From contig JACFMS010000012.1 of the NCBI GenBank assembly GCA_019455285.1, positions 12,459 to 76,458 of the forward strand: a DNA stretch of 64,000 nt. Reading direction: 5' to 3'. The notes below the pieces were generated by a model that did no database searches, was not told where the DNA came from, and worked only from the letters and a program-made list of their open reading frames with translations. Both the position numbers and the translations under genes were made by a program. This document shows, one piece after another, positions 31,726 to 48,158 of the stretch (the first letter of the stretch is position 1; each line of letters begins with the position of its first letter). This DNA comes from Sphingomonadales bacterium (GTDB taxonomy: Bacteria; Pseudomonadota; Alphaproteobacteria; Sphingomonadales; Govanellaceae).

Positions 31726-31950
31726 GAACTTGTTACTCCTTGTAGAGGCCCGTGGTAGCGCATTTGGGGTTGCGCGATCAACTCTTGTCCATTTTCTGCG
31801 CTACCCGATATTTAGGGTACCCTACCCACTTTGAATTTTTCTCTACCCACCCGCGCAGGTTCAATCTTCCAATTTATCAATCGGTTGATAGGGCCGTTGT
31901 GGCGTACCTTAAAAAAATCGCCATCGCTTAATCAAGCGGGAGATGAAGGG

Positions 31951-33528
31951 TTGCGGATTGGCATCGACGTTGGCGGCACCAATACGGACGCGGTCCTGAT
32001 GGACGGGCGTCGGGTGGTGGCCTGGGCCAAGCGGCCGACCACTCGGCCGGTGGAAGACGGCATCATCGCCGCCATGACCGCCGTCATCGGCGACAGCAGC
32101 GTCGCCACGTCTGCGATCCAGGCGGTGATGATCGGCACCACTCATTTCACCAACGCCTTTGTCGAAGGCCGGGGTCTCTTGAAAGTCGGCGTCATTCGCC
32201 TGGCGAGCCCTTCCGGCGAAGCCCTGCCGCCGATGATCGGCTGGCCCAAGGCGCTGCGGCAGGCGGTGGAAGGACAAACCTTCATGCTGCCCGGCGGCTA
32301 TGAATTCGACGGCCGGACCATTGCTGAGTTCGACGAAGATCAGGTGCGACAGTCTGCGCGCAAAATTCACCGCGCCGGGCTTGAGGCGGTGGCCATCACG
32401 TCGGTCTTCGCGCCCATCAACGCGGCGATGGAGGAACGGGCGGCGGCTATCGTGCGCGAGGAATGTCCCGGGGCGAAAATTACGCTCTCCAGCAGCATCG
32501 GCCGCATCGGCCTTTTGGAGCGAGAGAATGCCGCGATCATGAATGCCTCGCTGGCCGCCATGGCCGGCGAAGTGGTGCAATCATTCCGCGACGCCTTGCG
32601 TGAAATGCGCATCAGGGCACCCTTCTATGTCAGTCAGAACGACGGCACGCTGATGTCGGCGAAATATGCCGAGGTGTTGCCGATCTTGACCTTCGGCTCC
32701 GGCCCCACCAACAGCCTGCGCGGCGCGGCGTTTCTTACCGGCTGTCGTGACGCCATCGTCATTGATGTTGGCGGCACCACCAGCGATGTTGGCGTGCTCA
32801 TCAACGGCTTTCCGCGCGAATCCACGGCCTCGGTCGATATTGGCGGCGTGCGCACTAATTTCCGCATGCCCGATGTGCTGGCGATCGGCCTTGGCGGCGG
32901 CACAAGGGTGCATCTGGATCCATCGCTCTATAGCGCCGATGTCCTCAGTGATGACGACTTTTCCATCGGCCCGGACTCTATGGGCTATCGGCTGCTCAGC
33001 GATTCTTATCTCTTCGGCGGCGGTACGCTGACCATGAGCGATGTCGCGGTTGCGGCCGGGTTGGCGACGTTCGGCGATCCATCGCGGGTGCCGGCGCTCA
33101 GTGATGCGGTCAAGGCGGCGGTCATGGGCCGCGCTCGTCGGATGATCGAGGACGGGATCGACAGAATGAAAACGGCGGCCGGCGACGTACCAGTGGTGGT
33201 GGTTGGGGGAGGGGGGTTCCTCCTTCATGAGAAGCCGCGCGGGGCGAGCGAACTGTCGCAGCCGGAACATGCCTCGGTGGCGAACGCCATTGGCGCTGCC
33301 ATCGGCCAGGTGAGCGGCGAGCTTGACCGGGTGATCAGTTATGCCGGCGGCGTCCGGGAACGGGCGCTCAATGACATTCGCGCCCTGGTAATGGAACTGG
33401 CCGTTGCGGCGGGGGCGTCGCCGGCAACCGTTGAAGTCATCGATGTGGAAGAAGTGGCGCTCAACTATTTGCCCGGACAGTCAGTTCGGGTACGCGCCCG
33501 AGCGGTGGGGGACCTAAAATTCTCGTGA
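31951..33528 (+). CDS. Hydantoinase/oxoprolinase family protein (HyuA-like)
   Basis: About 525 residues, of the ATP-grasp-free hydantoinase/5-oxoprolinase A group that opens five-membered cyclic amides with ATP. The actin-like nucleotide motifs are IGIDVGGTNTDAVLMDG at about residue 3-19 and IVIDVGGTTSDVGVLING near 268. VVGGGGFL follows near 412. I chose the TTG at 31951 because homologues begin here and GGGAG lies 8 bases before it; a TTG at 31831 would add 40 non-conserved residues. It overlaps the DUF917 gene and no HyuB follows. Substrate unknown; hydantoin-like is inferred. Confidence 0.85.
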   Translation: MRIGIDVGGTNTDAVLMDGRRVVAWAKRPTTRPVEDGIIAAMTAVIGDSSVATSAIQAVMIGTTHFTNAFVEGRGLLKVGVIRLASPSGEALPPMIGWPKALRQAVEGQTFMLPGGYEFDGRTIAEFDEDQVRQSARKIHRAGLEAVAITSVFAPINAAMEERAAAIVREECPGAKITLSSSIGRIGLLERENAAIMNASLAAMAGEVVQSFRDALREMRIRAPFYVSQNDGTLMSAKYAEVLPILTFGSGPTNSLRGAAFLTGCRDAIVIDVGGTTSDVGVLINGFPRESTASVDIGGVRTNFRMPDVLAIGLGGGTRVHLDPSLYSADVLSDDDFSIGPDSMGYRLLSDSYLFGGGTLTMSDVAVAAGLATFGDPSRVPALSDAVKAAVMGRARRMIEDGIDRMKTAAGDVPVVVVGGGGFLLHEKPRGASELSQPEHASVANAIGAAIGQVSGELDRVISYAGGVRERALNDIRALVMELAVAAGASPATVEVIDVEEVALNYLPGQSVRVRARAVGDLKFS

Positions 33529-34685
33529 TGGTGAAAAGGGACGGGATGCAAGAAAACCACGGCTATAGGGCCGAGGCCGAGGCAGTGCGCTACCTCACTC
33601 TGGAGGACGTTCGCGATATGGCGCTGGGCACAGCGTTTCTCGGATCGGGCGGCGGCGGCGCGCCGGTCAGCGCGCTTCTGCAACTGGAGGCGGCGCTGGC
33701 CAGTGGGCGCCAAATCAAACTTATTGATCTGGCGGCGGTGCCGGACGATGCGCTCATCGCGCCTTGCGGCTGGATGGGGGCGCCAACGGTGTCGGAGGAA
33801 AAACTGCCCAACGGTCGTGAGGCGATCCGCGGCCTGGAGAAGCTTGAGGAGATCAAAGGACAACGGGTGTTCGCGGTGTTTCCGGTGGAGATTGGCGGCA
33901 GCAACGGCCTGTCGCCGCTGCTGATCGCTGCCGAGCGCGGCATTCCGGTGGTCGATTGCGACGGCATGGGACGGGCGTTCCCAGAGTCGCAAATGGTGGT
34001 GTTCAATGTTTACGGCTGTTCCGCCAACCCAGTCATCGTCACCGACGAGAAGGGCAACGTGATCGTGCTTGAGGCGGTGACCAACGCCGAGGAGGAGCGC
34101 ATCACTCGCGTTCTCTCCATCGCTATGGGCGGCTCATGCCATGTCATCGACTATAGCGGCAGTGGCTATCAGATGAAGCAGCACGCGGTGCGCGGCACCA
34201 TCTCGCTGGCGATCGCCGTCGGGCGGGCGGTGCGACTGGCGCGCAGCGCTGGGCGTGATCCTTTTGCGGCGCTCATCTCCTGTCTTCGTTCGTCTAGTTA
34301 TTACAGTCATGGCGGCGTGTTGTTTGACGGCAAGATCGTCGATCTGGACCGCAATACAGAAGGCGGTTTTGCCGTCGGTCGGGCGGTTCTTGAAGGCTTT
34401 GGTTCCACCGAGCGCATGGTGGTGGAATTCCAGAACGAAAACCTGGTGGCCCGGCGCAATGGCACAACCGTCGCCACGGTGCCGGATATCTTGACATTTT
34501 TCGACCGCGAAACCGCGGAACCGATTACCACCGAACGCTTGCGCTATGGTCAGCGCTTGAAGCTGGTTGGACTGAGCGTGCCGCCGCTGCTGCGCACGGC
34601 GCAGGCGCTGGCGGTGTTTGGTCCGCAGGCGTTCGGAATTGCGGAACAGTACCAGCCCATTGAGGAGATCAATGGTTGGCTGTAG
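33528..34685 (+). CDS. DUF917 family protein (S-methyl thiohydantoin desulfurase family)
   Basis: A roughly 385-residue protein of the DUF917 family, whose domain is now described from S-methyl thiohydantoin desulfurase. It shows TLEDVRDMALGTAFLGSGGGGAP, IGGSNGLSPLLIAAERGIPVVDCDGMGRAFPE and a C-terminal GKIVDLDRNTEGGFAVG and VPDILTFFDRETAEPI. HyuA-like and DUF917 proteins are often encoded together or fused, which fits this overlapping pair. The start is ATG 33528 (overlapping the previous stop) or ATG 33546 after AAGGGACGGG. The reaction in this locus is inferred to involve a hydantoin or thiohydantoin ring. Confidence 0.85.
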   Translation: MVKRDGMQENHGYRAEAEAVRYLTLEDVRDMALGTAFLGSGGGGAPVSALLQLEAALASGRQIKLIDLAAVPDDALIAPCGWMGAPTVSEEKLPNGREAIRGLEKLEEIKGQRVFAVFPVEIGGSNGLSPLLIAAERGIPVVDCDGMGRAFPESQMVVFNVYGCSANPVIVTDEKGNVIVLEAVTNAEEERITRVLSIAMGGSCHVIDYSGSGYQMKQHAVRGTISLAIAVGRAVRLARSAGRDPFAALISCLRSSSYYSHGGVLFDGKIVDLDRNTEGGFAVGRAVLEGFGSTERMVVEFQNENLVARRNGTTVATVPDILTFFDRETAEPITTERLRYGQRLKLVGLSVPPLLRTAQALAVFGPQAFGIAEQYQPIEEINGWL

Positions 34686-34748
34686 AGAGCCTCATTAGTG
34701 AGGGGAAGCTTGATCGGGCATATGCCCAGGATAACGAGGAGGACTATC

Positions 34749-36920
34749 ATGGTGGGGAAATTTTACTATTTGGCGGCATATACTGCGCTGGCAGTGCTGC
34801 CTTCTGTGACGATGGCGGCAGTAGCGGACAATATGGTTTCGTTGGATGAAGTTATTGTTACGGTGCGCAAGATTGAGGAAAATCTGCAAAAAGCACCAGT
34901 ATCGGTGACAGCGGTGACCAGCAAAATGATCGATAATATGTCGATCAATAATCTTAGTCAGCTTGATCACATTGCGCCCAACCTGCAGTACAGCCCGGGG
35001 TTTTCAGGCAGTTCCAACGGAGCTAACTTCTATATCCGCGGGATCGGGCAGTCTGACTTTGTCGCTACTGCTGACCCCGGCGTGTCGCTTTATCTGGATG
35101 GCATTTATATCGGACGTACCATGGGCGCGTCTTTGGACGCGGCGGATATCGAGCGGGTTGAAGTCTTGAAAGGCCCGCAGGGCACGCTGTTCGGCAAAAA
35201 TACTATCGGCGGCGCCATCAACGTGGTGACCAAGCGGCCAGCCAAGGAAGCTGGCGGTTATGTGGAGGGCACCATCGGTAATTATCAGCGCATGGATGCG
35301 CGTTTCTCTGCTAATGCTCCCTTGTCCGATACGCTGTTCGCCAAAATCTCAGGCGTCACGCGCAACAATGACGGGTTCGCCAAGCGCGTGCTCGATGGTG
35401 TTCGCGTCGGCGATGACAATGATGTCGGCGGACGGATTCAATTGTTGTGGGATCCGGGCGAGAATGTGGATGTAATGTTGACCGTTGACGGCACCCATCG
35501 CCGGGCGCATATCGCGGCCCATAGCGCAACCCATGTGGTGGCGAGCGGCGGGGGTAATTATTTTACCTTGCTTACCGGCTTGGATGTGCTTGATTTCCCC
35601 GCATCTTCAGATCCACAGAAGATTAACACCACCAGCGTACGGCCAACGGATAACCTTGACGTTTTGGGCGTATCAGCGGAAATCAACTGGGATCTTGGCG
35701 GTGTTCGGTTGAAGTCTATTACCGCATACCGCGAAATGGACAATCAGTCGGGGGCGGATTTTGATGGCACTCTGGCCTTTTACAATGACCAGGAAGTCGA
35801 TCAACGGCAGAATCAGTTCACACAGGAACTCCAGCTATCGGGCAACTCTGAAAATCTGAAGTGGATTGTTGGCGCTTATTATCTGAAGGAGAACGTCGAT
35901 CAGAATATAGCCAACTACTACTATGCCTACTATGGCGCGCCTTTTAATCTGCCTTATGGCACTGCACGCACTACCGTCCTTGAACTCGATACCGAAAACA
36001 TCGCCGTCTTTGGACAGGCTACATATAACGTAACGGAGCAGTTCAGCCTGACCGCTGGGGCGCGATGGACTCACGAAAAGAAGGAGGCCGCCATCGTTGC
36101 GCCGTTCCAGATTCCTGGAGATGCTAGTTGGAACAATTTTTCACCAAGATTTGGGGTTGAGTTTCAGGCCACGGATGATGTGATGCTGTATGCCTCGGCG
36201 ACACGCGGCTTCAAAAGTGGCAGTTTCAATGGCCGTCCTGACTCGGCCTCGCAGTTCAATGCCTATGAGCCGGAAAAGGTCTGGTCCTTTGAAGCTGGTG
36301 TGAAATCGCAATGGTTGGACAACAGATTGCGCCTTAATGCGGCGGCATTCTTGACAAAGTATAAAGATATTCAAATGCTAACCGGTGCGGTAGACAATGA
36401 AGGGAACTTCTACTTCCCAGTGAACAATGCTGGCGACGTTGATCTAAAAGGCTTTGAAATCGAATTCCAGGCGCGACCCGCCGACCCGCTCACGTTATAT
36501 GGCAGCCTAGGCTATACTGATGAGGAATGGACGGAAATCGCGCCGATTGCCTTTGTTACCGAATCTACAAGGCTGCCGTCGCTATCGCATTGGAATGCCA
36601 ATATTGGTGCGCAATACGAAATGGCGCTGGCGAATTTTGGCTCGCTGATCCTCGGCGGTGACTACAGTTACCGCTCAAGCTACTTCCAGACCACCATCAA
36701 TTCGGCATTTGAGAAGGAAGACGGCTACTCGATGGTCAATGCCTACCTTATCATCGAGCCGGAAAGCAAGAAGTGGCAATTGAAGTTCTGGGGGAAGAAC
36801 CTGACGGATTCCGAGTATATAGCTTGGGCGCAGGACCTCATCGCCATCGGCGATTCGCACACTTCAGTCTGGTTCGGGCGGCCACGCGAGTACGGGGCGA
36901 CATTCCGCGTGAATTTCTAG
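34749..36920 (+). CDS. TonB-dependent outer membrane receptor
   Basis: A 723-residue outer-membrane active transporter. A signal peptide (MVGKFYYLAAYTALAVLPSV, cut after AVA) precedes the TonB box region LDEVIVTVRK. The plug domain (about 40-150) includes NFYIRGIGQSDF and VEVLKGPQGTLFGKNTIGGA, and a beta-barrel ends in phenylalanine (TFRVNF). The ATG at 34749 has GAGGAGGA upstream. Its codon usage is visibly less GC-rich than the flanking genes. Its place between DUF917 and a permease suggests it imports the substrate of this locus. No FecR-type partner is present. Confidence 0.93.
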   Translation: MVGKFYYLAAYTALAVLPSVTMAAVADNMVSLDEVIVTVRKIEENLQKAPVSVTAVTSKMIDNMSINNLSQLDHIAPNLQYSPGFSGSSNGANFYIRGIGQSDFVATADPGVSLYLDGIYIGRTMGASLDAADIERVEVLKGPQGTLFGKNTIGGAINVVTKRPAKEAGGYVEGTIGNYQRMDARFSANAPLSDTLFAKISGVTRNNDGFAKRVLDGVRVGDDNDVGGRIQLLWDPGENVDVMLTVDGTHRRAHIAAHSATHVVASGGGNYFTLLTGLDVLDFPASSDPQKINTTSVRPTDNLDVLGVSAEINWDLGGVRLKSITAYREMDNQSGADFDGTLAFYNDQEVDQRQNQFTQELQLSGNSENLKWIVGAYYLKENVDQNIANYYYAYYGAPFNLPYGTARTTVLELDTENIAVFGQATYNVTEQFSLTAGARWTHEKKEAAIVAPFQIPGDASWNNFSPRFGVEFQATDDVMLYASATRGFKSGSFNGRPDSASQFNAYEPEKVWSFEAGVKSQWLDNRLRLNAAAFLTKYKDIQMLTGAVDNEGNFYFPVNNAGDVDLKGFEIEFQARPADPLTLYGSLGYTDEEWTEIAPIAFVTESTRLPSLSHWNANIGAQYEMALANFGSLILGGDYSYRSSYFQTTINSAFEKEDGYSMVNAYLIIEPESKKWQLKFWGKNLTDSEYIAWAQDLIAIGDSHTSVWFGRPREYGATFRVNF

Positions 36921-36940
36921 GAAGCACGTGTTCGACTTGC

Positions 36941-36979
36941 GAGTAGGATAGGGAACTTTTTCCCTATCCTACTCGAATT
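36941..36979 (+). terminator. Strong hairpin between TonB receptor and permease (attenuator or terminator)
   Basis: GAGTAGGATAGGGAA (36941-36955) pairs perfectly with TTCCCTATCCTACTC (36960-36974), loop CTTT, followed by GAATTTTT. A 15-bp perfect stem within an otherwise codirectional gene run suggests partial termination or mRNA stabilisation. Confidence 0.75.
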
Positions 36980-37032
36980 TTTCTCTAGTGATGGACGCGG
37001 CTTCCGAGGGATAATCGGGCCAAGGTGACGGT

Positions 37033-38334
37033 ATGGAAAAGCTTGAAGCTTTGGTTGAGGATTTCTCCACCGCGCCGGTGCCTGACCAGGCGACGGTCAG
37101 CGGCACCCGGGTGGCGCTGATCATCATCGGCATCAGCATCGCCTTGCCGGGTTTTTTGATGGGGGCGCAGATCGGCACCGCCCTTGGCCTGGAAAAGGCT
37201 GGCATTGCCTTTGCCGCCGGCGGGCTTATTCTGGCATTTGTCGCCAGCCTGACCGCCCTGGTGGGGGCTGAAGCCAGGCTTAGCACCTACATGGTGGTGC
37301 AATTCGCCTTCGGCGTTGCTGGGGCGAGGTTGGTCAACACCGTATTCGCTGTTACCATGTTTGGCTGGTTTGGCGTCAATGCCGCTTTGTTCGGCGACGC
37401 CATGGTGGCGACCATGCGCGAGCTTTATCATATGTCAGGGGGCTGGCAGCTTTACGTCGCCATTGGCAGCATGCTGATGGTGCTGACCACCATTTTTGGA
37501 TTTAAGGCGCTGGATCGTCTGTCGCTGCTGGCGGTGCCGCTGCTGGTCATCATTCTGGTCGTCATCATGAGTGTGGCGATCATGCAGGCGACCCCCGAGG
37601 TTTTGTTTGGCGAGCCGCCTCAAACCATGAGTCTGGGGCTGGCGATCTCGGCTGTGGCCGGCGGCAGCATGGTGGGCGCGGCCTCCATCCCTGACCTCAC
37701 GCGCTACATCTCCTCACGAAAAAGCGCGGTGGGCAGCATGTTCGTCTCCTATGGGATTGGCGCTCCAGTGATTTTATTGTCGGCAGCGATTCCGAGCCTG
37801 GTCACCGGCGAGGCCGATTTGATGAAGATATTTCTCGGCCTTGGCCTTGGCTTGCCAGCATTATTCGTGCTCATCTTTTCTACCTGGACGTCGAATGCCG
37901 CCAATCTCTATAGCTCGGGGCTGAGTTTGGCGGCGACGTTCCGGCTGATCAAACCATGGAAATTGACGCTGATCGCCGGCGTGCTGGGCACGGGGGTGGC
38001 GCTTTCCGGCATCATCGAGGTGTTCATTCCCTTCCTCATTACGCTTGGTGTGTTCATGCCTCCCGTGGCTGCCATTTATGTCACTGATTTCTATCTCATC
38101 GCCCGGCGGCGGTATGATGTGGAAATTCTTGCCAAGGGGCCACCCATTCGCTGGTCGGCTTTTGCGGCCTGGGGAATGGGTTCTGTCACGGGGCTTGTCA
38201 CCGCCAACACTTCCTTGACGTTGACGACTATTCCGTCGGTCGATTCATTTATGGCGGCTGGGCTGTGTTATGTTGCCTTGATGCGCTGCGCTGTCAAATT
38301 CGGCAAGCCGCTGCCGGAATACCAAGGGAACTGA
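37033..38334 (+). CDS. NCS1 family permease (cytosine/hydantoin permease-like)
   Basis: A 433-residue inner-membrane transporter of the purine/cytosine permease-like family with about 12 helices. Signs are the N-terminal TRVALIIIGISIALPGFLMGAQIG, GWFGVNAALFGD, AGGSMVGAASIPDLTRY near residue 210 and IFSTWTSNAANLYSSGLSL near 290, all typical of CodB-like members. In this locus, uptake of a hydantoin-type ring is a reasonable guess. It is followed after 2 bases by the racemase gene. Confidence 0.92.
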   Translation: MEKLEALVEDFSTAPVPDQATVSGTRVALIIIGISIALPGFLMGAQIGTALGLEKAGIAFAAGGLILAFVASLTALVGAEARLSTYMVVQFAFGVAGARLVNTVFAVTMFGWFGVNAALFGDAMVATMRELYHMSGGWQLYVAIGSMLMVLTTIFGFKALDRLSLLAVPLLVIILVVIMSVAIMQATPEVLFGEPPQTMSLGLAISAVAGGSMVGAASIPDLTRYISSRKSAVGSMFVSYGIGAPVILLSAAIPSLVTGEADLMKIFLGLGLGLPALFVLIFSTWTSNAANLYSSGLSLAATFRLIKPWKLTLIAGVLGTGVALSGIIEVFIPFLITLGVFMPPVAAIYVTDFYLIARRRYDVEILAKGPPIRWSAFAAWGMGSVTGLVTANTSLTLTTIPSVDSFMAAGLCYVALMRCAVKFGKPLPEYQGN

Positions 38335-38336
38335 GG

Positions 38337-39113
38337 ATGCTGAAAATATATACTATCGCGCCGGTGATCGCATCGCCGCACATCTCGGAAGACAGCTATC
38401 AGGCGTTTCTTGACCGGCAATTTGCCGACCTGGCCGGGGTGCAAGTGATCGGCCGGCTGTTGGATAGCGGGCCGAGCTCGGTGGAAAACGAAATGGATGA
38501 CGCTCTTGCGGTTCCCGGCGTCTTGCGGGCCGGCCTGAAGGCGCGGCAGGAAGGCGCAGACGGCATTCTTATTGATTGCATGCTCGATCCCGGCCTGAAG
38601 ACCTTGCGCGCCGCCCTTGATATTCCGGTCATGGGCGCGGCAGAGATCGGGTTTCGCCTGGCGGCGACCTTGGGCAACAAGTTTGGCATTATCGATGTTT
38701 GCGACGATACCGGACCGATGGTGGGGGCGCAGGTGCGCGCGATGGGGCTGGGCGAGCAATTTGCCGGCGTGCGCGGCACCGGGCTTGCCGTGGAAGCGGT
38801 GGAGAAAGATGAAGCATTGACCATGGCGCGGCTGGTGGAGGCGGCGTCGCGGGCGGTCAGAGAGGACGGCGCCGATATCCTGGTTTTTGGCTGCACCGAA
38901 TTTTCACGCTATACGGACAAGCTGCGAAAACGCCTGTTGAACGACAAGATTGACGTGCCGGTGATCAACCCCACCGCGTTGGCCGTCGGGACCCTGGCGG
39001 CGGTGGTGCGCGCCGGCGTTATCCACAGCAAGCGCGTCTACCCCACCCCCCGGGAAAGGAAAGCGCTGCGCGGCTATGATTTGCCGCAATTTTATGATGT
39101 TTTAAAGGGCTGA
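38337..39113 (+). CDS. Asp/Glu/hydantoin racemase family protein
   Basis: The 258-residue protein belongs to the Asp/Glu racemase superfamily, close to hydantoin racemase (HyuE). It has the two-cysteine catalytic pair in LIDCMLDPG (Cys81) and VFGCTEFSRY (Cys186), with NKFGIID and PVINPTALAV between and after. The ATG at 38337 has GAGG just upstream and follows the permease gene. It would let the pathway use both enantiomers of a hydantoin-like substrate; this is inferred from context. Confidence 0.9.
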   Translation: MLKIYTIAPVIASPHISEDSYQAFLDRQFADLAGVQVIGRLLDSGPSSVENEMDDALAVPGVLRAGLKARQEGADGILIDCMLDPGLKTLRAALDIPVMGAAEIGFRLAATLGNKFGIIDVCDDTGPMVGAQVRAMGLGEQFAGVRGTGLAVEAVEKDEALTMARLVEAASRAVREDGADILVFGCTEFSRYTDKLRKRLLNDKIDVPVINPTALAVGTLAAVVRAGVIHSKRVYPTPRERKALRGYDLPQFYDVLKG

Positions 39114-39176
39114 GACCGCAGGCCGTACGACCTGGTTGGGTATAGAATAGTGTAATAATGCACAGGATTTTGTAGC

Positions 39177-40223
39177 GTGAAAACGATCTACAGCGACAAG
39201 CATAGACTGCAGCATGGCCAGGCCGAACTTTTCGGTAACAAGCTGGTGCCCTGCCACGAGCGACCTGTCCGAGCGGATGCCATCCGCGCCCGCATCGAGG
39301 AGGTAAAACTCGGCCCCATCATCGCGCCCGGCGACTTTGGGATCAATGCCATCACGGCGGTGCATGCCCGCGATTATGTGGAGTTTCTTCACGGGGCGTG
39401 GGAGGCATGGCGTGCGGCGGGAGGCGAGGGGGATGCGCTGCCCTGCTGCACGCCGATGCCCGACATGAGCCGCCGTCTGCCGACATCGATTTATGGCAAG
39501 ATCGCTTACTACTCCTTTGACGCCACGGCGCCAATCACCCAAGGTACCTGGGAGGCTGCCTACGCGTCGGCGCAGGTGGCGCTGACCGGCGCCGATCTAT
39601 TGATCAAGGGTGATCGGGCGGCGTTTGCGCTGTGCCGGCCGCCGGGTCATCATGCCTCACGCGCCTATTACGCCGGCTACTGCTTCCTCAATAACGCCGC
39701 CATCGCCGCTCAGTCCTTGATTGCGCGCGGCATGAAGCGCATTGCCATTCTTGATGTCGATTACCATCATGGCAATGGCACGCAGTCGATTTTCTATGAT
39801 CGTGACGATGTTTTGTTCGTTTCCATCCATGGTGATCCCAATGAGGACTACCCCTTCTTTTTGGGCCACGCGGATGAGAGAGGCGTTGGTAAGGGCGAGG
39901 GATATAATATTAATTTCCCGCTGCCCCATGGCGCCACGGTCAAGGAGTGGTTTAATACGTTGGCGGTATCGCTGGAGGCCATCCGCAAGTATAAGCCGGA
40001 GGCAGCGGTGATCTCGCTGGGGGTTGATACCTATGCGGGAGATCCGATTTCCCATTTTAAGCTTGATTCTGAGGATTTTCTTCGCCTGGGCGAACGACTG
40101 TCCACCTTGCGCCTGCCGACGCTGTTCATCATGGAGGGCGGCTATAACGTGGACGCCATTGGTATGAACGTCGCCAACGTGCTAATGGGCTTTGAAGAGA
40201 CTAGAAAGCCTGCCCTCGCTTGA
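39177..40223 (+). CDS. Acetylpolyamine amidohydrolase / class II histone deacetylase family
   Basis: A 348-residue zinc deacetylase very like Mycoplana ramosa acetylpolyamine amidohydrolase. The numbering even coincides: His158-His159 in RPPGHHA, zinc ligands Asp195 and His197 in DVDYHHGNG, Asp284 in LGVDTYAGDP, and Tyr323 in EGGYN. The start GTG at 39177 has only a weak ribosome site. It lies in the hydantoin-type locus, so it could remove an acyl group or hydrolyse an amide in the catabolic product rather than act on polyamines. Confidence 0.9.
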   Translation: MKTIYSDKHRLQHGQAELFGNKLVPCHERPVRADAIRARIEEVKLGPIIAPGDFGINAITAVHARDYVEFLHGAWEAWRAAGGEGDALPCCTPMPDMSRRLPTSIYGKIAYYSFDATAPITQGTWEAAYASAQVALTGADLLIKGDRAAFALCRPPGHHASRAYYAGYCFLNNAAIAAQSLIARGMKRIAILDVDYHHGNGTQSIFYDRDDVLFVSIHGDPNEDYPFFLGHADERGVGKGEGYNINFPLPHGATVKEWFNTLAVSLEAIRKYKPEAAVISLGVDTYAGDPISHFKLDSEDFLRLGERLSTLRLPTLFIMEGGYNVDAIGMNVANVLMGFEETRKPALA

Positions 40224-40309
40224 ACCTTGGATAATTTTCATTCTCGCGATGACTGTGATATGCTCCATAAGCGTCATGGTGGGGACATGACTAACGTGGG
40301 CAACATGTC

Positions 40310-43036
40310 ATGCGGCGATCGAATGAGCGCAGTGACCTACATACCAGGCTGGATGAACTAGCCGCCACCAAGCTTGCCCCCCAGGACCGCGATGAAGGTC
40401 ATATTGTTCGCCAAGACCTGATGATACTGCTGGACGACGTGCTGCGCCACCGTTTGACGGTGGTTCACGCCGGCGCCGGCTATGGCAAAACCAGCCTCCT
40501 TATGCAGTGGTTAAAGGAAGTGCAGGGTCGGCGCATCGCTGCCGCCTGGCTGACGCTGGAGGAAGACGAAGCTTCGCCCTCCGTGTGCTTGGCGCATATG
40601 TTCGCCGCCATCGCCAAAATCGGCTATGTGAACTATGATCCGCTATCAGGCTTGGTCAATTTTGATGAAAAAATGTCGGTCAAGTCGCTGGCTACGGCAT
40701 TCATCAACACTGTTGCCGAGAACAGCGATCCCTTGGCCATCTTTCTTGATGAATTCAATCGTGCTCAGTCGGAAGAATTAAGCGCGCTGTTCAAGACTCT
40801 GATGCGCCAGCTTCCCCGGCATGTTCACTTTATCATCGCGTCGCGCTGGCGGCCGGAAATCGATATTGAGAACTTTCGGGCTCGTGGCGATCTGATTGAA
40901 GTCACCGCTCACGATCTGCGTTTTTCTCGGCAGGAGGTTGCCGCCCTGTTGGCAAGTTCCGGCGCGCATTTGAGTGAACTGGAACTGCATCGCCTGACCG
41001 ACCGCACGGAAGGCTGGCCTATTGCCTTGCAGATGGCGCGGATGTGGCTGAATGGCGATGGGCAGAAGGCGCGTCTGGTGTCCGATTTCTCTGGTCGGAC
41101 GACGGATCTGACGCGCTATTTGAGCGAACAGGTGCTGTCCGCCCTGCCGGAAGAGACGCAAAGCTTTCTCATGCAAACCGCGATTCTTGACCGCCTCAAT
41201 GGTGATATCGCCAATGCCCTGACAGATCGGCGCGACGGCTGGCTGATGCTGGAACAGCTTTATGAGCGCGATCTGTTTCTGGTGCCGGAAAATGATGACC
41301 GCCAGTGGTTTCGCTATCACATGCTGTTTCTCGATTTTCTGCGCGACCGACTTCAGCGTTATGGCGCTGAAGCCATTGCCGAGCTGCACTACCGGGCGGC
41401 GGATTGGCTGGCCGGGCATGGCATGACCAGGGCGGCGGTGCATCACGCCTTGAAGGCCGGCGATTATCATCTCGCGGCGCGGCTGTTGAGCGACGCCGGC
41501 GGTTGGCGTCTCATCATGGATGGCCGCATCAATATGATACGCAGCGCAATCGCGGGCTTTCCTGACGCGATCGTGCGGGAATATCTGCTGCTTTCCCTCG
41601 CCAAGGCTTTCCTTCTGGTCAAGGATGGCGATGTCAAGTCGGCTCTTGATTATTTTCATGGTCTGGAAAAGCAGCCAACCTGGAGCGCGCAGGAGGCAAT
41701 AGACTATGAGGTGGTCGCGCATATTCTGGCCGATTATGCCGATGAGGCGATGCCGCTGGCGGATATCGAACGAGTCAAGAAACTGCGGCAAAGAATTCAT
41801 AAGAACGACCATGTTCTGCATGCCATCCTGGCGGATTCGCTAGCGACGAAATATTACGAGTACGGCTCCTTCAAGCAGGCGCTTGAAGCCTGTGATGACG
41901 CGATCAGCCACTATCGCGTTTTAAGATCGCTTTACGGCGAGGTGTTTTTGCGCTTTACCCAGGCCAAGGCGCACTTGGCGCAGGGTCGCCTAGATGACGC
42001 CGAGCAGATTCTGCGCGGCACCGAGAAGGAGCTCGAGGTGCGCTTTGGCGACGGTATCGATCTTTCGGCGCACACGTCGATTTACCTGGCCGAAGTTCTG
42101 GCCGAGCGCGGCCTGGTGGAGGAAGCCGCCAAGCGCTTGCGTCATGCCTTGCCGGTAGCCGAGCAAAGTGACGGCTGGTATGAGCTTTACGCCACCGCCT
42201 ATTCCGCCGCGGCTGCCGTGGCATGGGCAGAGCATGGCCTGGATGCCGCCCTGGCGGCCTTGGATCGGGCCCGCGCCATGGCCAGAGAGCGTCATTTGGA
42301 TCGCCTGCTTCTCTTGGCGGATTGTCAGTCGGTATATTATCTTTTCCTCAGTGGCCGCACGGCGGAGCTTCCAAGTTATGTTCCCCGTTTGCGGCAGTTC
42401 CTGGCGGTATCGATTGACCTGCCGTCCCATCGTTCCGTGTGTCTGACAGCGGCGAGCCTGGCGATGATCCATATCGCCGGCAAGGACTATGATGCGGCCG
42501 AAGACACGCTGACGCCATGCGTGACAGCTGCCGAAACCAACGGGGATATTTGCCAGTTGATCATGCTCACCTTGTTGCAGGCCGCGGCGGCGTCGGCGGC
42601 GGGACGGACAGAGGCGGCGGCGCGGGCCCTTGACAAAGCGGTGCGAGACGGGCTTTTCACCGGCATCCTGCGTCCCTACCTGGAGCATGGACGCCGCTTG
42701 AAGCCGGTTATCGAGGCTATCCTTCATGGCGGTTCATCACTGCCGCAGGATCGCTACCGCGACAATTTTCTGCGCGAGTTGCTGCGCGATCTCCGCCGCT
42801 TGGAGAAACGGCAGGACAGCGAAGGGATTGTGTTGACCTCGGCTGAATTGGCGGTTCTGCGGGAGCTTGACCATGGCTTTTCTAATAAGGAAATCGCCCT
42901 TAAGCTCGGCATTTCGCCCAACACCGTCAAGTATCGCATGAAGAGCCTGTTCGCCAAGCTTGGCGTCTCGCAGCGCGCGGAGGCGGTCAAGGTTTGCCGC
43001 GAGCAAGCGCTGCTTTCCAATAATCCCGCTGACTGA
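40310..43036 (+). CDS. LuxR family regulator of MalT type (ATP-dependent)
   Basis: A 908-residue regulator. A P-loop (VVHAGAGYGKTSLL, residues 51-64) and Walker B-like LAIFLDEFNRAQ start a STAND-type NTPase. A long helical repeat region (about 350-830) follows, and the C-terminus is a LuxR helix-turn-helix with LTSAELAVLRELDHGFSNKEIA and NTVKYRMKSLFAKLGV. MalT-like proteins bind a small inducer and ATP. Its position at the end of the codirectional run makes it the likely regulator of the locus; the inducer is unknown. Confidence 0.93.
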   Translation: MRRSNERSDLHTRLDELAATKLAPQDRDEGHIVRQDLMILLDDVLRHRLTVVHAGAGYGKTSLLMQWLKEVQGRRIAAAWLTLEEDEASPSVCLAHMFAAIAKIGYVNYDPLSGLVNFDEKMSVKSLATAFINTVAENSDPLAIFLDEFNRAQSEELSALFKTLMRQLPRHVHFIIASRWRPEIDIENFRARGDLIEVTAHDLRFSRQEVAALLASSGAHLSELELHRLTDRTEGWPIALQMARMWLNGDGQKARLVSDFSGRTTDLTRYLSEQVLSALPEETQSFLMQTAILDRLNGDIANALTDRRDGWLMLEQLYERDLFLVPENDDRQWFRYHMLFLDFLRDRLQRYGAEAIAELHYRAADWLAGHGMTRAAVHHALKAGDYHLAARLLSDAGGWRLIMDGRINMIRSAIAGFPDAIVREYLLLSLAKAFLLVKDGDVKSALDYFHGLEKQPTWSAQEAIDYEVVAHILADYADEAMPLADIERVKKLRQRIHKNDHVLHAILADSLATKYYEYGSFKQALEACDDAISHYRVLRSLYGEVFLRFTQAKAHLAQGRLDDAEQILRGTEKELEVRFGDGIDLSAHTSIYLAEVLAERGLVEEAAKRLRHALPVAEQSDGWYELYATAYSAAAAVAWAEHGLDAALAALDRARAMARERHLDRLLLLADCQSVYYLFLSGRTAELPSYVPRLRQFLAVSIDLPSHRSVCLTAASLAMIHIAGKDYDAAEDTLTPCVTAAETNGDICQLIMLTLLQAAAASAAGRTEAAARALDKAVRDGLFTGILRPYLEHGRRLKPVIEAILHGGSSLPQDRYRDNFLRELLRDLRRLEKRQDSEGIVLTSAELAVLRELDHGFSNKEIALKLGISPNTVKYRMKSLFAKLGVSQRAEAVKVCREQALLSNNPAD

Positions 43037-43202: not shown

Positions 43203-44660
43203 ATGGCGAAGGTTGTGCTCATTGTCGACGACGAACCCCTGCAGCGTAAACTGTTGATGGCGGCGCTGTCATCGTTCGGATATGAGGTAGTATCCGCCGC
43301 CTCGGGCCGTGACGCCGCTGACCTCATTCTCGGCGGACAGAGCAAGATCGATGTCGTTCTTCTCGACCTGATGATGCCGCAGATGAGCGGGCTCGATGTG
43401 CTGGCCGAGGTCCGCCCGAAAAAAGCCAATCTGCCGATCATCGTGCTCACCGCCGAAAGCTCGGTGGAAACCGTGGTTGCCGTCATGCGCGCCGGCGCCA
43501 CCGATTTTATTCCTAAGCCGGCGTCGCCCGATCGTCTGAAGGCGGCGGTAGAGAACGCCCTGCGTACCAATACCGCAACTGGCGAAATTACTCGCGGCAA
43601 GCGGCGCTGGGCCGGGCGCATGAACTTTGCCGATCTGATTGGCGAAAGTCCGGCCATGATGCGCGCGGTGGAGCTCGCCAAGAAGGGCGCGGCTTCCAAT
43701 ATCCCAATTCTGATCGAAGGCGAAAGCGGCGTCGGCAAGGAAATGTTCGCCCGCGCCATTCAAGGATCGAGCGACCGCGCCGACAAGCCCTTCATCACCG
43801 TCAACTGCGGCGCGATTCCGGAAAACCTGGTAGAAAGCATTCTTTTCGGCCATGAAAAAGGCGCGTTTACCGGGGCTACTGATCGCCACGACGGCAAGTT
43901 TGTGGAAGCCAACGGCGGCACGCTATTTTTGGACGAGATCGGTGAACTGCCGCTGGATATCCAGGTCAAGCTGTTGCGCGCCATTCAGGAGGGCGAGGTC
44001 GATCCGGTGGGCGGCCGCAAGCCGGTCAAGGTTGATATCCGGCTCATCTCCGCCACCAACAAGACGCTGATCGAGCGCGTCAAGGAAGGCAACTTTCGCG
44101 AAGATCTGCTTTATCGCTTGAATGTCTTTCCGATCCGCATCCCGCCCTTGCGCGAACGGCGGGAGGATATTCCGCGCCTGGTTCGTCATCTGGTGGAAAC
44201 CTTGTCCAAGGGCGAAGGAAAGTCGGTGCGCCCGGTGACGCAGCGCGCCATGGAACTGCTCACTCAGTATGATTGGCCGGGCAACGTCAGGCAGTTGGAA
44301 AACGCCATCTTCCGCGCCGTTATCCTGGCCGATGGCGACGAGCTGGACGTCAACGACTTCCCGCAGGTTCTGTCCGCGGTTTCAGGGCCGCCGCCCGCCG
44401 TAACGGCGGAAACGTCGGCGGTCAACGATCATCGCCCATCTGCGCCGACCACCATTGCGCTGACCGATGACAAGGGCCACCTGCGCATGCTGAGCGATAT
44501 CGAATCGGATATCATCCGCCTGGCCTTGGAAAAATATAACGGCCATATGTCGGAAGTGGCGCGGCGGCTGGGCATTGGCCGCTCCACCCTTTATCGCAAG
44601 GTGGCGGAGTTGGGGCTGGAAGGCTTCCCCCACGCCATCAACGGCGGCAAGGCGGGGTAG
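43203..44660 (+). CDS. NtrC-family sigma-54-dependent response regulator
   Basis: A 485-residue activator. The receiver domain (1-115) has Asp55 in VVLLDLMMP and Lys105 in FIPKPAS. The AAA+ domain has Walker A GESGVGKE (173-180), the sigma-54 contact loop GAFTGA (220-225) and a Walker B at [10 protein letters not shown] Fis-type HTH lies near 440-480 ([20 protein letters not shown]). The ATG at 43203 opens the receiver. No histidine kinase is adjacent, so it is an orphan in this window. Confidence 0.94.
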
Positions 44661-44687
44661 GTAAGCTGGGTTTTTAATCAGCTATTT

Positions 44688-44790
44688 CCCCCTCCCCCTT
44701 TGATGGGGGAGGGTCGGGGTGGGGGTGATGTCGAACATTTCACGTGCTATCACCCCCATCCAAACCTTCCCCCATCGAGGGGGAAGGCTT
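44688..44790. repeat. Long inverted repeat between convergent genes, copy B
   Basis: Nearly identical to the element at 23539-23640: CCCCTCCCC... with GATGGGGGAGGGTC, then CACCCCCATCCAAACCTTCC and GGGGGAAGGC followed by a T run. It separates the response regulator from the convergent gapR. Confidence 0.85.
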
Positions 44791-44800
44791 TTTTTTATGT

Positions 44801-45052
44801 CTACCCCCGATCAAGACCCAAGGCATGGGTATAAAGGTCAAGGAGCGCCTCCTGCTCCTTGCGGGCGTGCTCTTCCATTTTCCGCAAGCGGATGACCTGG
44901 CGCATGATCTTCGGCTCAAAGCCGGTACCCTTGGCTTCGGCGTAGACGTCCTTGATGTCCTCAGCGAGCGCCTTTTTTTCTTCCTCCAGGCGCTCAATAC
45001 GCTCGATGAAGCTTTTCAGTTGCTCGGCGGCGATGCCCCCTACGTCGGCCAT
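44801..45052 (-). CDS. gapR: GapR family DNA-binding protein (DUF2312)
   Basis: An 83-residue helical nucleoid protein that in Caulobacter clamps overtwisted AT-rich DNA ahead of replication and transcription. The sequence reads [20 protein letters not shown], then [20 protein letters not shown], and ends LYTHALG, the family pattern. It is a single gene, convergent with the response regulator. Given the AT-rich repeats elsewhere in the window, its targets would be interesting, but no link is shown. Confidence 0.93.
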
Positions 45053-45185
45053 GACGAACGGTCTCCTTGATCCTCAAAAACGGGCGGGCACCATAGCCGC
45101 CACGGCGCGGCGAGGCAATGGGCTTTGCGGGTACGCGCGCCTGTGGCATGCTCCGCGCCCTAAACGGCAACGGAGGGCAGGGGCG

Positions 45186-45983
45186 ATGCAAGGCCGGGTG
45201 TTGATTGTGGCGGGCTCGGATTCCGGCGGAGGCGCGGGCATTCAGGCCGATATCAAGGCGGTGACCATGATGGGCGCTTATGCCGCCACCGCGGTAACCG
45301 CGCTCACCGCCCAGGACACCGTGGCGGTGCACGAGGTATTCCCTGTCCCGCCGGCCTTCGTCGCCAAGCAGATCGCGGTGGTGCTCGACGATATCGGCGC
45401 TGATTGCATCAAGATCGGCATGCTGGCCACGGCGCCTATCATTCAAGCAGTGGCCGATGCCCTGGACGCCCATGGGCCGGCCATCCCCCGGGTGGTGGAC
45501 CCGGTGATGGTGGCGACCTCCGGCGGGCGGCTACTGGCCGATGATGCGGTGGGAGCGTTGAAGGCCCGGCTGATCCAAGGCGCGGCGGTGGTCACGCCCA
45601 ATATCCCCGAGGCCGAAGTGCTGACCGGCCGCGCCATTGCCGGCGAGGCCGATATGGTTGAGGCGGCGAAAGAAATCATAGGCATGGGGGCGCGGGCGGT
45701 GGTGATGAAAGGCGGCCACTTGCCGGCGCGCCGTTTGGTGGACCTGTTGGTGACGGCCGAAGGCATCACGCGCTTTGAAAGCAACAAGATCGACAGCGCC
45801 AGCACCCACGGCACGGGCTGCACGCTCGCTTCCGCTATCGCTGCCGGCGTCGCCCAGAACATGCCCCTGGAAAAGGCTGTCGCCCGCGCACGGGACTATG
45901 TGTGGCGGGCGATTCAGCTTGCTCCCGGTTTTGGTCATGGTCATGGGCCGTTGAACCATATCGATGCGGCGATTGGCAGATAG
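45186..45983 (+). CDS. thiD: Hydroxymethylpyrimidine/phosphomethylpyrimidine kinase
   Basis: ThiD phosphorylates HMP and HMP-P for the thiazole-pyrimidine coupling of thiamine synthesis. The 265-residue protein has VAGSDSGGGAGIQADIKA at its start, a TALTAQDT strand, VVDPVMVATSGGRLLADDA, and the C-terminal THGTGCTLASAIAAG anion hole with its catalytic aspartate-equivalent. The ATG at 45186 is the family start. It lies 45 kb from thiL in this window and is not in a thi operon. Confidence 0.95.
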   Translation: MQGRVLIVAGSDSGGGAGIQADIKAVTMMGAYAATAVTALTAQDTVAVHEVFPVPPAFVAKQIAVVLDDIGADCIKIGMLATAPIIQAVADALDAHGPAIPRVVDPVMVATSGGRLLADDAVGALKARLIQGAAVVTPNIPEAEVLTGRAIAGEADMVEAAKEIIGMGARAVVMKGGHLPARRLVDLLVTAEGITRFESNKIDSASTHGTGCTLASAIAAGVAQNMPLEKAVARARDYVWRAIQLAPGFGHGHGPLNHIDAAIGR

Positions 45984-45990
45984 GCCCCAT

Positions 45991-46158
45991 TCACGCCACT
46001 TCCCGAAACGAGTCGCAGATTTTTTGGTGGCGGCGGTACGCTGCCCGCTTGATGCGATGACGCCGGGCGCTCAGACGATTGAAAAATCCGGCGCTGTCGG
46101 CGAAATCGTTGTCCGGCTGCACCAGCCGCGCGGTTGAGAAGTAATGAACGGTCAACAT
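45991..46158 (-). CDS. Small arginine-rich protein (55 residues)
   Basis: A short gene not obvious by length. The ATG at 46158 is preceded by AAAGGAGA with a 9-base spacer, an excellent ribosome site. The product has an N-terminus MLTVHYFSTARLV and a basic C-terminal half (FNRLSARRHRIKRAAYRRHQ). It recalls small DUF1127/YjiS-like proteins in size and charge but lacks their usual motif. A TGTGA-N6-TCACA site lies about 150 bases upstream. I cannot assign a function. Confidence 0.6.
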   Translation of the reverse strand: MLTVHYFSTARLVQPDNDFADSAGFFNRLSARRHRIKRAAYRRHQKICDSFREVA

Positions 46159-46305
46159 GGCTCTTAATCTCCTTTAGGCTTGATGTTGCGGCAGGCGAAC
46201 CTGCATCTTTCTGGCCGATTGTCCGTGGCGGCGCCTGGTGGATGTTGTCTTGCGTCATCACGTAAGCGGCATGGTCGTAATGTAGGAAATCCCGCCGCGC
46301 CCCGC

Positions 46306-46321
46306 TGTGATCGGCATCACA
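46306..46321. promoter_or_regulatory. Perfect CRP/FNR-superfamily consensus site
   Basis: TGTGATCGGCATCACA matches TGTGA-N6-TCACA exactly, about 148 bases upstream of the small minus-strand gene (start at 46158). The cognate regulator is not in the window. Confidence 0.55.
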
Positions 46322-46668
46322 ATCGGCGAGGAAAAATGTGCGCCCTGACTATGAGGATGCCGAAGAGGCGGCACGGCATCTATTGACGCCATGGTTTGGC
46401 AAGGCATTTATAAAAATAATATTTTTATATCAATGGGTTATATGATTTTAGCAAGCCAGAGCCCAGGACTGCGCCGCTTGCCACGGTCAGCGAACTTAAC
46501 CGATGGCGAAGCTGAGGGAGGGGGTAGTTTTTCGGCTATTTTAACTTGGCATGTTAAATTGGACGAAAAAATAGGGACGCGCTGATCAAGTGGCGGCTCT
46601 CTCATTCTCCTGCCTTTCTCTGGGCAAGGGTTCAGCGTTTCTGGTTGAGCATAAAAAACGGCCCTTGG

Positions 46669-46742
46669 CGTCATCCCCGCGAAAGGCGGGGAACCAGTCA
46701 ATCGCAAAAGAATCTGGATTCCCGCTTTCGCGGGAATGACGG
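46669..46742. repeat. Interspersed palindromic repeat, copy 2
   Basis: GTCATCCCCGCGAAAGGCGG and TTCCCGCTTTCGCGGGAATG arms match the copy at 5339-5409 in design and size. It borders the AT-rich DUF2971 gene on its left. Confidence 0.8.
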
Positions 46743-46813
46743 AGTGGTGTATATATTTAAGCTCCCCTTAGTTGCAATTTGCTTTGATAACACGCATAGG
46801 GAGATGGTGAAAA

Positions 46814-47785
46814 ATGGGTGACGAGCCTGACTATAGTAAGCTAGAAGAAATTTTTTTTCCATTTTCTCTAAACGAAAAACAAAAGATCATTAATTCAAAT
46901 AATAAGTTTGTTCACTATACAAGCGCTGAGAACGCATTAAAAATTATAGACACAAGAGAGTTCTGGATGAGGAACGCACTGTGTATGAACGACTATAGCG
47001 AAATAAATTATGGCCTCCAATTACTCAATTCATATTTCCGTGATGAACAGAAACGAAATAAGTTCTTCGAAGTGTTGATGGCGTGTGGAGTAAATTATGA
47101 TATAATAAATATTGTTATCAAGAAATTTGACGATAGCTCTCTTTTTATTAGATTTGAAACATATGTAAGCTGCTTTTCCGTACACGATACAAAAAACGAA
47201 GATGATGTGGGTCGGTTATCTATGTGGAGGGCCTATGGTAGAACTCCTGCTCGTGTTGCCTTGGTCCTAAATTCGGCTCTTTTTTTTGGTGAATCAGACG
47301 CGTTGGAAGCGTACTTATTCCCTGTTTCATACTCGGATACCGTTTTTTTCAATGAACTGAACAATATCGTTTCCAATATGGAAAATAACCGCGACTACAT
47401 CAAAAGCATAAACCCGGGAATAATTGCAGAGTGTATTTATAGGGTATTTCTATTCGGCATAACATGTACAAAGCATAAGGGTTTTTCAGAAGAGCAGGAA
47501 TGGAGAGTGTTGCATTTTCCTGAAATATGGAAATCTGAAGTTCTAAAGCCTGATGTTGTTACGATTGATGGGGCTCCACAGAAAATTTTTAAAATTCCAT
47601 TGGCAGATATCCCTGATGAAGGCTTGGTTGGCGTAGAGTTGCCGTCACTAATTGATCGGATTATTATTGGTCCTTCGCTAAATCCGTGGCCGATTCAGGG
47701 GGCTTTCATTCATGCTCTAATGAAAGCCGGCGTGCATGACGCAGCGGAAAGGGTATTTGTTTCTGAAATTCCGCTAAGAACATAA
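46814..47785 (+). CDS. DUF2971 family protein, AT-rich (probably acquired)
   Basis: A 323-residue soluble protein of the DUF2971 family: FVHYTSAENALKII, then FWMRNALCMNDYSEINYGLQLL, LSMWRAYGR and the C-terminal KGFSEEQEWRVLHFPE. The family is uncharacterised, though members appear in mobile and defence-rich regions. Base use is strongly AT-rich compared with all neighbours, so recent transfer is likely. GGGAGATGG precedes the ATG. It stands alone and its stop is a few bases from the convergent DUF486 gene. Confidence 0.85.
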   Translation: MGDEPDYSKLEEIFFPFSLNEKQKIINSNNKFVHYTSAENALKIIDTREFWMRNALCMNDYSEINYGLQLLNSYFRDEQKRNKFFEVLMACGVNYDIINIVIKKFDDSSLFIRFETYVSCFSVHDTKNEDDVGRLSMWRAYGRTPARVALVLNSALFFGESDALEAYLFPVSYSDTVFFNELNNIVSNMENNRDYIKSINPGIIAECIYRVFLFGITCTKHKGFSEEQEWRVLHFPEIWKSEVLKPDVVTIDGAPQKIFKIPLADIPDEGLVGVELPSLIDRIIIGPSLNPWPIQGAFIHALMKAGVHDAAERVFVSEIPLRT

Positions 47786-47795
47786 ATGTCTAACT

Positions 47796-48158
47796 TCACC
47801 CCACCGGCTTGCCGAAAACAAAATACGCGCCGATGAAAATCAGCGTGAAGCCGATGGCGTGGTTGATCGTCATCGGTTCCTTTAAATAAAATACCGAAAA
47901 CGCCGCGAAGACGCAGAGCGTGATCACCTCCTGCATGGTCTTTAATTCCGCCGCCGAATAGACCGCGTGGCCGATGCGGTTGGCCGGCACGGCGAGCCAG
48001 TATTCAAAAAACGCGATGCCCCAACTGACCAGCACGGCGATCCATAGCGCTGTGCTCTTGAATTTCAAATGCCCGTACCAGGCAAAGGTCATGAACACGT
48101 TGGAGCAGACCAAAAATATGATGGGTAATATATGGGGCAGCGATAACGCGGCGGGCAT
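47796..48158 (-). CDS. DUF486 family (DMT superfamily) membrane protein
   Basis: A 120-residue protein with four membrane helices of the DUF486/small-multidrug-type fold: IFLVCSNVFMTFAWYGHLK near the N-terminus, VSWGIAFFEYWLAVPANRIG, a following YSAAELKTMQEVITL, and FYLKEPMTINHAIGF. Transport function is suspected but the substrate is unknown. It is transcribed away from serC. Confidence 0.9.
   Translation of the reverse strand: MPAALSLPHILPIIFLVCSNVFMTFAWYGHLKFKSTALWIAVLVSWGIAFFEYWLAVPANRIGHAVYSAAELKTMQEVITLCVFAAFSVFYLKEPMTINHAIGFTLIFIGAYFVFGKPVG

Follow-up and report, generated by a model that had tools for sequence, protein, structure and literature searches.

Within the window, i.e., the whole 64,000-nucleotide stretch analyzed here, profile searches recovered seven co-directional genes on the + strand between positions 31951 and 43036, each matching the family that a first-pass annotation of this DNA had named. 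The set begins with a short HyuA-type ATPase subunit (31951..33528, TTG start, 525 aa; PF05378 135 bits, PF01968 91 bits), whose frame is open from 31831, and a 386-aa DUF917/S-Me-THD-like protein (33525..34685; PF06032 190 bits, PF20906 200 bits), the two genes overlapping by 4 bases. These are followed by an outer-membrane TonB-dependent receptor (34698..36920; PF07715 68.6 bits, PF00593 172.2 bits), an NCS1-family permease (37033..38334; PF02133), an Asp/Glu/hydantoin racemase (38337..39113; PF01177 120 bits) with a start set by inspection and lying 3 bases after the permease stop, an HDAC-type zinc deacetylase of the acetylpolyamine amidohydrolase group (39177..40223; PF00850), and a MalT-like LuxR-type transcriptional activator (40310..43036; PF17874, PF00196). 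Two further features lie on the same strand: three CTACCC direct repeats with exact 21-bp spacing, forming a probable operator array (31802..31848), and a hairpin with a 16-bp perfect stem and a T-rich tail between receptor and permease (36940..36975). HyuB and N-carbamoylase are both absent from the locus, as the first-pass annotation had noted; ~10 HyuB genes occur in the same genome, all outside the locus.

The HyuA protein yielded an AlphaFold model with a pLDDT of 92.5, whose structural matches were the caprolactamase subunit CapA, N-methylhydantoinase, and carboxylase subunits, including those of acetone and acetophenone carboxylases. The phosphate-1 motif DVGGTNTD (DxGGTxTD) and the phosphate-2 motif DVGGT (DxGGT) are both present, these ATP-site motifs being kept as in CapA (PMC8453981), and their core residues were invariant or nearly so in alignments of 27 and 49 sequences. 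The protein nevertheless falls short of the full-length type of ~690 aa with its C-terminal domain: the PF01968 match spans 173 of 291 positions, and the long HyuA paralogues of this genome occupy open frames of 684–731 aa.

For the DUF917 protein (AlphaFold pLDDT 92.7), comparison with the PDB returned a single clear fold match, 2o3i, which is another DUF917 protein (Z 41.2, rmsd 2.3, 341 residues), and among the PDB matches listed no likeness to HyuB or to a known hydrolase rose above noise. Since the confident match is limited to 2o3i, no mechanism can be read from the fold. In the DUF917 alignment, no His or Cys position was invariant or close to it, so that the metal chemistry of HyuB is not simply transferable; the invariant positions include the acidic residues E92, E122, D146, E191, E305, and D321. 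DUF917 is seldom named in the literature: our search returned four papers that mention it, one of which describes it as a family without experimental characterization, and returned no enzyme assay and no characterized example of any HyuA–DUF917 pair. Against the curated desulfurase models, the protein scored 105.1 bits (NF058529, cut-off 440) and 94.3 bits (NF058532, cut-off 450). Lone DUF917 genes in G006, G013, G018, and G023 were considered as true desulfurases and rejected, their scores lying likewise far under the cut-off.

The seven-gene grouping is not due to chance, as the whole set recurs with identical operon gene order in another genus of the same family (L075), and a short HyuA adjoins DUF917 in 45 of 47 sampled Sphingomonadales loci. 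The first-pass annotation would have been undone by a lack of co-occurrence in other genomes; this was checked, and the set was found there. Across the 47 loci, a TonB-dependent receptor was present in 38, a MalT-type regulator in 34, and an NCS1 permease in 29, with the racemase and the deacetylase found in 11 and 3, respectively. Co-variation with HyuA was highest for DUF917 (r = 0.87), followed by NCS1 (0.71), MalT (0.48), and the receptor (0.44), where the highest value obtained by shuffling for these four pairs was 0.36; the racemase (r = 0.55, n = 10) remained below its shuffled maximum of 0.64. The 3.3 Mb Sphingomonadales genome itself carries six paralogous modules, each with a short HyuA and a DUF917 gene, in none of which a PF02538 (HyuB) match was detected, and all four of its NCS1 genes fall inside these modules. 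The pairing is widespread, extending to other phyla and to archaea. The set is not a one-off, being one of six paralogous modules and part of a very widespread class. The absence of HyuB is normal for this short-HyuA class, in which DUF917 occupies the place of HyuB. Long frames (L087, L135, L136, L141, L144, and others) were searched for HyuA–DUF917 fusions, and the two never shared a frame; fusion is therefore not claimed as proof of pairing. In L101 and L215, close DUF917 genes stand beside NCS1 with no adjacent HyuA, so that DUF917 may need no HyuA at all or may work with one supplied in trans. Module contents also vary, as C–N hydrolases of the M24, Amidohydro_3, creatininase, and M19 types swap between modules, and a sister module in this genome combines a xanthine-dehydrogenase-type hydroxylase and a luciferase-like monooxygenase with HyuA–DUF917, pointing to chemistry on a ring, the same combination being found in Peribacillus (L142). 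In other Alphaproteobacteria, PotABCD-type transporters lie beside HyuA–DUF917, with three ATPases scoring over the potA subfamily cut-off.

Both plug and barrel domains of the receptor scored over their cut-offs, and a TonB-box-like DEVIVTV is present, while its score was under the siderophore-subfamily cut-off. With 66 receptor plug domains in the genome, a neighboring TonB-dependent receptor is by itself weak evidence, and it is solely from this receptor that we infer a bulky imported compound. The permease is nearest to the cytosine permease CodB (PRK11017, 207 bits against a cut-off of 326; 7qoa, E = 3e-34), and likely represents an NCS1 transporter with a cargo other than that of CodB. 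The hairpin between these two genes is a candidate attenuator or mRNA-stability element, and L075 and L072 have hairpins of different sequence at the same position.

The racemase matches allantoin/hydantoin racemase structures, and its Cys81/Cys186 pair is kept in 32 of 33 and 33 of 33 sequences, respectively. Such an enzyme suits a substrate with a chiral ring better than it suits a polyamine lactam, which is achiral. The deacetylase is identical to PsApaH (9gkz) at 197 of 341 positions (58%), and all of the HDAC active-site motifs RPPGHH, DVDYHHGNG, GVDTY, and EGGY are there. Judged by its sequence, it is a predicted acetylpolyamine amidohydrolase of cluster 4, the group of PsApaH, which has been assayed on acetylputrescine (PMC11532494). 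Among four genomes of the family, a close homologue (60%) occurs only where the window-type module does.

The regulator reached 316.7 bits against the MalT equivalog model (cut-off 537) and is thus predicted to be a MalT-like activator, not MalT. Upstream of HyuA, TACCC starts at 31802, 31823, and 31844, an exact 21-bp period whose score was not reached in 1000 shuffles, and a (C/T)TACCC direct-repeat array also precedes HyuA in seven related loci. In L103 (Sphingomonas formosensis), L211, L213, and L214, the array stands before HyuA and also before a separate TonB-dependent receptor gene. This 21-bp-spaced array, a new element of the present analysis, is probably the operator of the MalT-type regulator, and would probably place the receptor, the permease, and the enzymes in a common regulon. 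A 27-bp stretch common to the HyuA and NCS1 upstream regions scored 30 against a random maximum of 26, a weak signal that L075 does not conserve, and a sigma-70 promoter scan showed no real excess (9 found, 6.1 ± 2.7 expected).

Taken together, the seven genes probably capture an external nitrogen-ring compound and open its ring at the cost of ATP, and we lean towards reading this locus as a regulon that is induced to take up and break down one cyclic-amide compound (lactam, imide, or hydantoin-like). The uptake and breakdown proposed by the first-pass annotation thus stands as the best reading, and several of its components are recognizable: inducer control in the MalT-type regulator and upstream array, transport across both membranes in the receptor and NCS1 families, a hydantoin-type racemase in PF01177 and the two catalytic Cys, and amide cleavage in the acetylpolyamine-type deacetylase. 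Under this scheme, the regulator would bind both an inducer and the TACCC repeats to switch the operon on, after which the receptor and the permease would carry the compound over the outer and inner membranes, and the racemase would make both stereo-forms usable. HyuA would then activate the ring amide with ATP, analogous to the proposal for CapA, DUF917 may finish the ring opening, and a module-specific C–N hydrolase, here the deacetylase, could cut a second amide to release an amine. Our leading guess for the substrate is a cyclic amide whose side chain is an N-acylated aminoalkyl group, e.g., a polyamine-derived lactam, based on the deacetylase's identity to PsApaH and on the PotABCD-type transporters seen beside HyuA–DUF917 elsewhere.

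This reading must be weighed against other uses of the same genes. It is rather unlikely that the module degrades a cyclic dipeptide (diketopiperazine), with ring opening by HyuA–DUF917 yielding a dipeptide for a peptidase-like enzyme to finish, as no peptidase is encoded in the window module, where the hydrolase is of the acetylpolyamine type and the permease is closest to a cytosine permease instead of a peptide carrier. Sister modules do include prolidase-like M24 peptidases or an M19 dipeptidase, L106 and L153 encode oligopeptide-type ABC transporters, with a nitroreductase-family gene in L106, and the part of PMC11055893 considered here reports cyclodipeptide-oxidase clusters enriched in DUF917, hydantoin racemases, dipeptide/oligopeptide transporters, and peptidases. 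Those clusters, as described in that part, share DUF917, a hydantoin-type racemase, and transporters with the locus, whereas the window lacks the oxidase and adds a TonB receptor and MalT-type control; HyuA is not discussed in that part of the report. The desulfuration raised by the first-pass annotation fares worse: a pathway in which DUF917 desulfurates a thiohydantoin (e.g., an ergothioneine derivative) before HyuA opens the ring would account for the homology to thiohydantoin and S-methyl-thiohydantoin desulfurases, with which the locus shares the S-Me-THD_N/C family, yet scores this far below the curated cut-offs, the pairing with HyuA, the lack of an ergothionase- or urocanase-like gene or other ergothioneine-pathway genes, and a deacetylase and permease left unexplained make it scarcely credible.

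Two alternatives concern the enzymes themselves. HyuA–DUF917 could use ATP to activate its substrate without hydrolyzing a ring, e.g., as a carboxylase, since subunits of the acetone and acetophenone carboxylases of the HyuA superfamily are, in addition to CapA, among the matches of the HyuA model, but no HyuB-like coupling subunit is found and the partner genes encode amide hydrolases, racemases, and permeases of the nucleobase type, so that we regard this as improbable. Similarly, an operon serving acetylpolyamine use, with HyuA, DUF917, and the racemase as passengers or acting on an unrelated side product, would fit a deacetylase that clearly belongs to the polyamine group and the Pot-type transporters of other modules; it is very improbable, given that the deacetylase is found in so few of the 47 loci, that HyuA–DUF917 is the constant part, and that the operator array stands before HyuA.

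Compared to the HyuA/HyuB amidohydrolases (HyuAB, 5-oxoprolinase, N-methylhydantoinase, and CapAB), the cyclic-amide locus shares the HyuA fold and ATP-binding motifs, the cyclic-amide setting, and a nearby hydantoin-type racemase and NCS1-type permease. It differs in a HyuA ~165 residues shorter than the long type, and in having, in the stead of HyuB, a DUF917 protein that lacks an invariant His and so does not carry HyuB's Asp-His-Asp-His metal ligands. In TonB-receptor-led carbohydrate utilization loci, a single inducible unit encodes an outer-membrane receptor together with an importer of the inner membrane, enzymes of the cytosol, and a regulator. The present locus has the same overall layout, although its enzymes are for cyclic amides and not glycans, SusD is missing, and the regulator is of the MalT type. 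A broader and more tentative proposal, which we hold at somewhat short of even confidence, is that HyuA–DUF917 forms a class of its own among ATP-dependent ring-opening enzymes, pan-prokaryotic in range and with DUF917 supplying a new, non-HyuB active site. In Sphingomonadales it would be deployed in receptor-led cyclic-amide loci akin to polysaccharide utilization loci, in which the amide hydrolases are interchangeable and the operator is a 21-bp-repeat array. If the pair is such an enzyme, this would explain a large gene set annotated by resemblance alone, and would provide a second way to hydrolyze lactams and hydantoins that are otherwise stable, a reaction of interest in dealing with nylon-type lactams and drug residues and in producing amino acids. 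Cyclic amides would likewise have a TonB-fed route of uptake into Sphingomonadales, and the operator array offers a direct handle on the search for the inducer.

The first-pass annotation had proposed seven co-directional genes on the forward strand at 31951-43036, and all seven were confirmed with the families claimed: a HyuA-like ATPase, a DUF917 protein, a TonB-dependent receptor, an NCS1 permease, a racemase, an acetylpolyamine-type deacetylase, and a MalT-like regulator. The locus is both genuine and conserved, and a system for inducible uptake and ATP-dependent ring opening explains it best. By sequence inspection, the most plausible HyuA start is the TTG at 31951, the HyuA and DUF917 genes overlap by 4 bases, and the racemase gene begins at 38337, 3 bases past the permease stop. 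CodB is the nearest relative of the permease, yet its score falls under the CodB cut-off, while the regulator scores under the MalT cut-off and the racemase keeps its Cys81/Cys186 pair. A hairpin lies between the receptor and permease genes (36940-36975), and others occur in two related modules, L075 (about 6737-6810) and L072 (in the NCS1-receptor gap); the three hairpin sequences are unrelated, and their role is possibly to make expression unequal.

A neighborhood search for the set had been suggested from the sequence, and the whole set indeed recurs at L075, a DUF917 locus from another genus of the same family. There, the HyuA-DUF917-receptor-NCS1-racemase-deacetylase order is identical and a MalT-type gene adjoins, with identities to the window of 59, 60, 52, 51, 42, 60, and 38%, respectively. 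Within 8 kb of 47 such Sphingomonadales DUF917 loci, we detected HyuA at 45, a TonB receptor at 38, a MalT-type gene at 34, NCS1 at 29, a racemase at 11, and a deacetylase at 3. The close deacetylase homolog (60%) was confined to genomes with a window-type module, in a small sample of four family genomes, two of them incomplete. Across 80 named loci from Alphaproteobacteria, Gammaproteobacteria, Actinobacteria, Firmicutes, Chloroflexi, and several archaea, short HyuA and DUF917 genes were mostly adjacent, often with NCS1. Pairwise distances of HyuA and DUF917 were strongly correlated (r = 0.87, 39 Sphingomonadales pairs), followed by HyuA with NCS1 (0.71), MalT (0.48), and the receptor (0.44), against a largest value of 0.36 in shuffled controls for the four comparisons. 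Taken together, neighbor counts and distance correlations indicate that HyuA-DUF917 is the constant unit, to which exchangeable carriers and second enzymes are added.

The window genome (3.30 Mb, rated 100% complete) encodes 6 DUF917 proteins, 16 HyuA N-domains, 4 NCS1 permeases, about 10 HyuB, 66 TonB plug domains, and 10 MalT-type regions, 9 of them above cut-off. By length, its HyuA proteins divide into a class of ten long ones (684-731 aa) and a class of six short ones (open frames of 524-616 aa); every short one (6/6) has a DUF917 gene in its cluster, no HyuB was found in these six clusters, and all four NCS1 genes lie within them. Beyond the shared HyuA and DUF917, module content varies: the window module (contig C23) carries the deacetylase; in C42, two prolidase-like M24 enzymes occur along with a zinc-type oxidoreductase and an MFS carrier; and C16 encodes a luciferase-like monooxygenase together with a xanthine-dehydrogenase-type hydroxylase in three parts. 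A receptor, NCS1, and a racemase are present in C2 and in C47, and NCS1 alone in C48. On contig C36 (11895-13500), a HyuB gene that adjoins a long HyuA gene and a MalT-type one is apparently broken into two open frames, which may reflect either a frameshift or a break in the assembly.

HyuA retains the ATP-site motifs of the caprolactamase subunit CapA (PMC8453981), and its model (pLDDT 92.5) gave full-length matches to N-methylhydantoinase, carboxylase subunits, and CapA. By position, DUF917 stands in the place of HyuB, and we infer that it has taken over HyuB's function. Its model (pLDDT 92.7) had one clear structural match, the uncharacterized DUF917 protein 2o3i. No His or Cys was found among the invariant or near-invariant DUF917 residues, and thus a metal site with HyuB's Asp-His-Asp-His ligands cannot exist there in that form. 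The HyuA class gains here a variant whose partner has an undescribed role. Desulfuration, also put forward in the first-pass annotation, is unsupported because the curated models for thiohydantoin desulfurases, NF058529 and NF058532, give DUF917 scores of 105 and 94 bits, under their cut-offs of 440 and 450; as far as sequence tells, this is not a desulfuration locus. Separately, L101 and L215 carry a window-subclade DUF917 (identity about 55-58%) alongside NCS1 and a LysR regulator and lack an adjacent HyuA, so that DUF917 may act there alone or with HyuA in trans. Nine loci (L104, L106, L107, L111, L114, L115, L119, L120, and L153) have two to five DUF917 genes per HyuA, which suggests hetero-oligomers or several substrates.

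Upstream of HyuA, three CTACCC repeats exactly 21 bp apart (31802, 31823, and 31844) form a candidate operator. Period 21 ranked top in both the window and L075, its score being reached by 0/1000 and 5/1000 shuffles, respectively, and across 1.1 Mb of Sphingomonadales loci TACCC pairs were seen 17 times at distance 21 and at most 4 times at any other. Such pairs precede HyuA in the window, L075, L103 (Sphingomonas formosensis), L211, L212, L213, L214, and L216, the exceptions being L217 (22 bp) and L084 (a single copy); L080 likewise has (C/T)TACCC repeats spaced by 21 bp, and in L082, L147, and L171 the spacing is 22-23 bp. In L103, L211, L213, and L214 the same pair also precedes a separate receptor gene, which gives physical support for one regulon of receptor, permease, and enzymes. 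No TACCC pair was found before HyuA in the five other modules of the window genome, and its three further pairs are no excess over a reversed control pattern; the regulon in this genome is therefore probably limited to this cluster. Given the position of the array and the presence of the gene, the MalT-type regulator would be the protein that binds it. Repeats of (C/T)TACCC spaced by 21 bp are a candidate operator through which such regulators would control HyuA-DUF917 modules. Nothing that we found describes this operator.

The deacetylase shares 58% identity (197/341) with PsApaH (9gkz), which is reported to deacetylate N1-acetylputrescine (kcat 4.12 per second) and was placed in a polyamine deacetylase cluster (PMC11532494). 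PotABCD-type transporters occur in the alphaproteobacterial modules L104, L114, and L117, with three ATPases over the potA subfamily cut-off and PotB and PotD identified by structure matches; together with the deacetylase, these point to an amine group in the substrate. The hydroxylase-monooxygenase-HyuA-DUF917 set is a second conserved pathway, found in two phyla (L018, the C16 module, and L142 of Peribacillus glennii), and its occurrence in sister modules argues for nitrogen-ring chemistry. A second amide is suggested by the hydrolases that exchange between modules (M24, Amidohydro_3, creatininase, M19, and the acetylpolyamine deacetylase). The main rival substrate is a cyclic dipeptide, consistent with the peptidases in the modules, the oligopeptide-type transporters in L106 and L153, and clusters described in PMC11055893.

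Elsewhere in the window, local G+C falls to 0.54 at 44001-48000, against ~0.61 around it, and a 323-aa frame (46814-47785) lies within this stretch.
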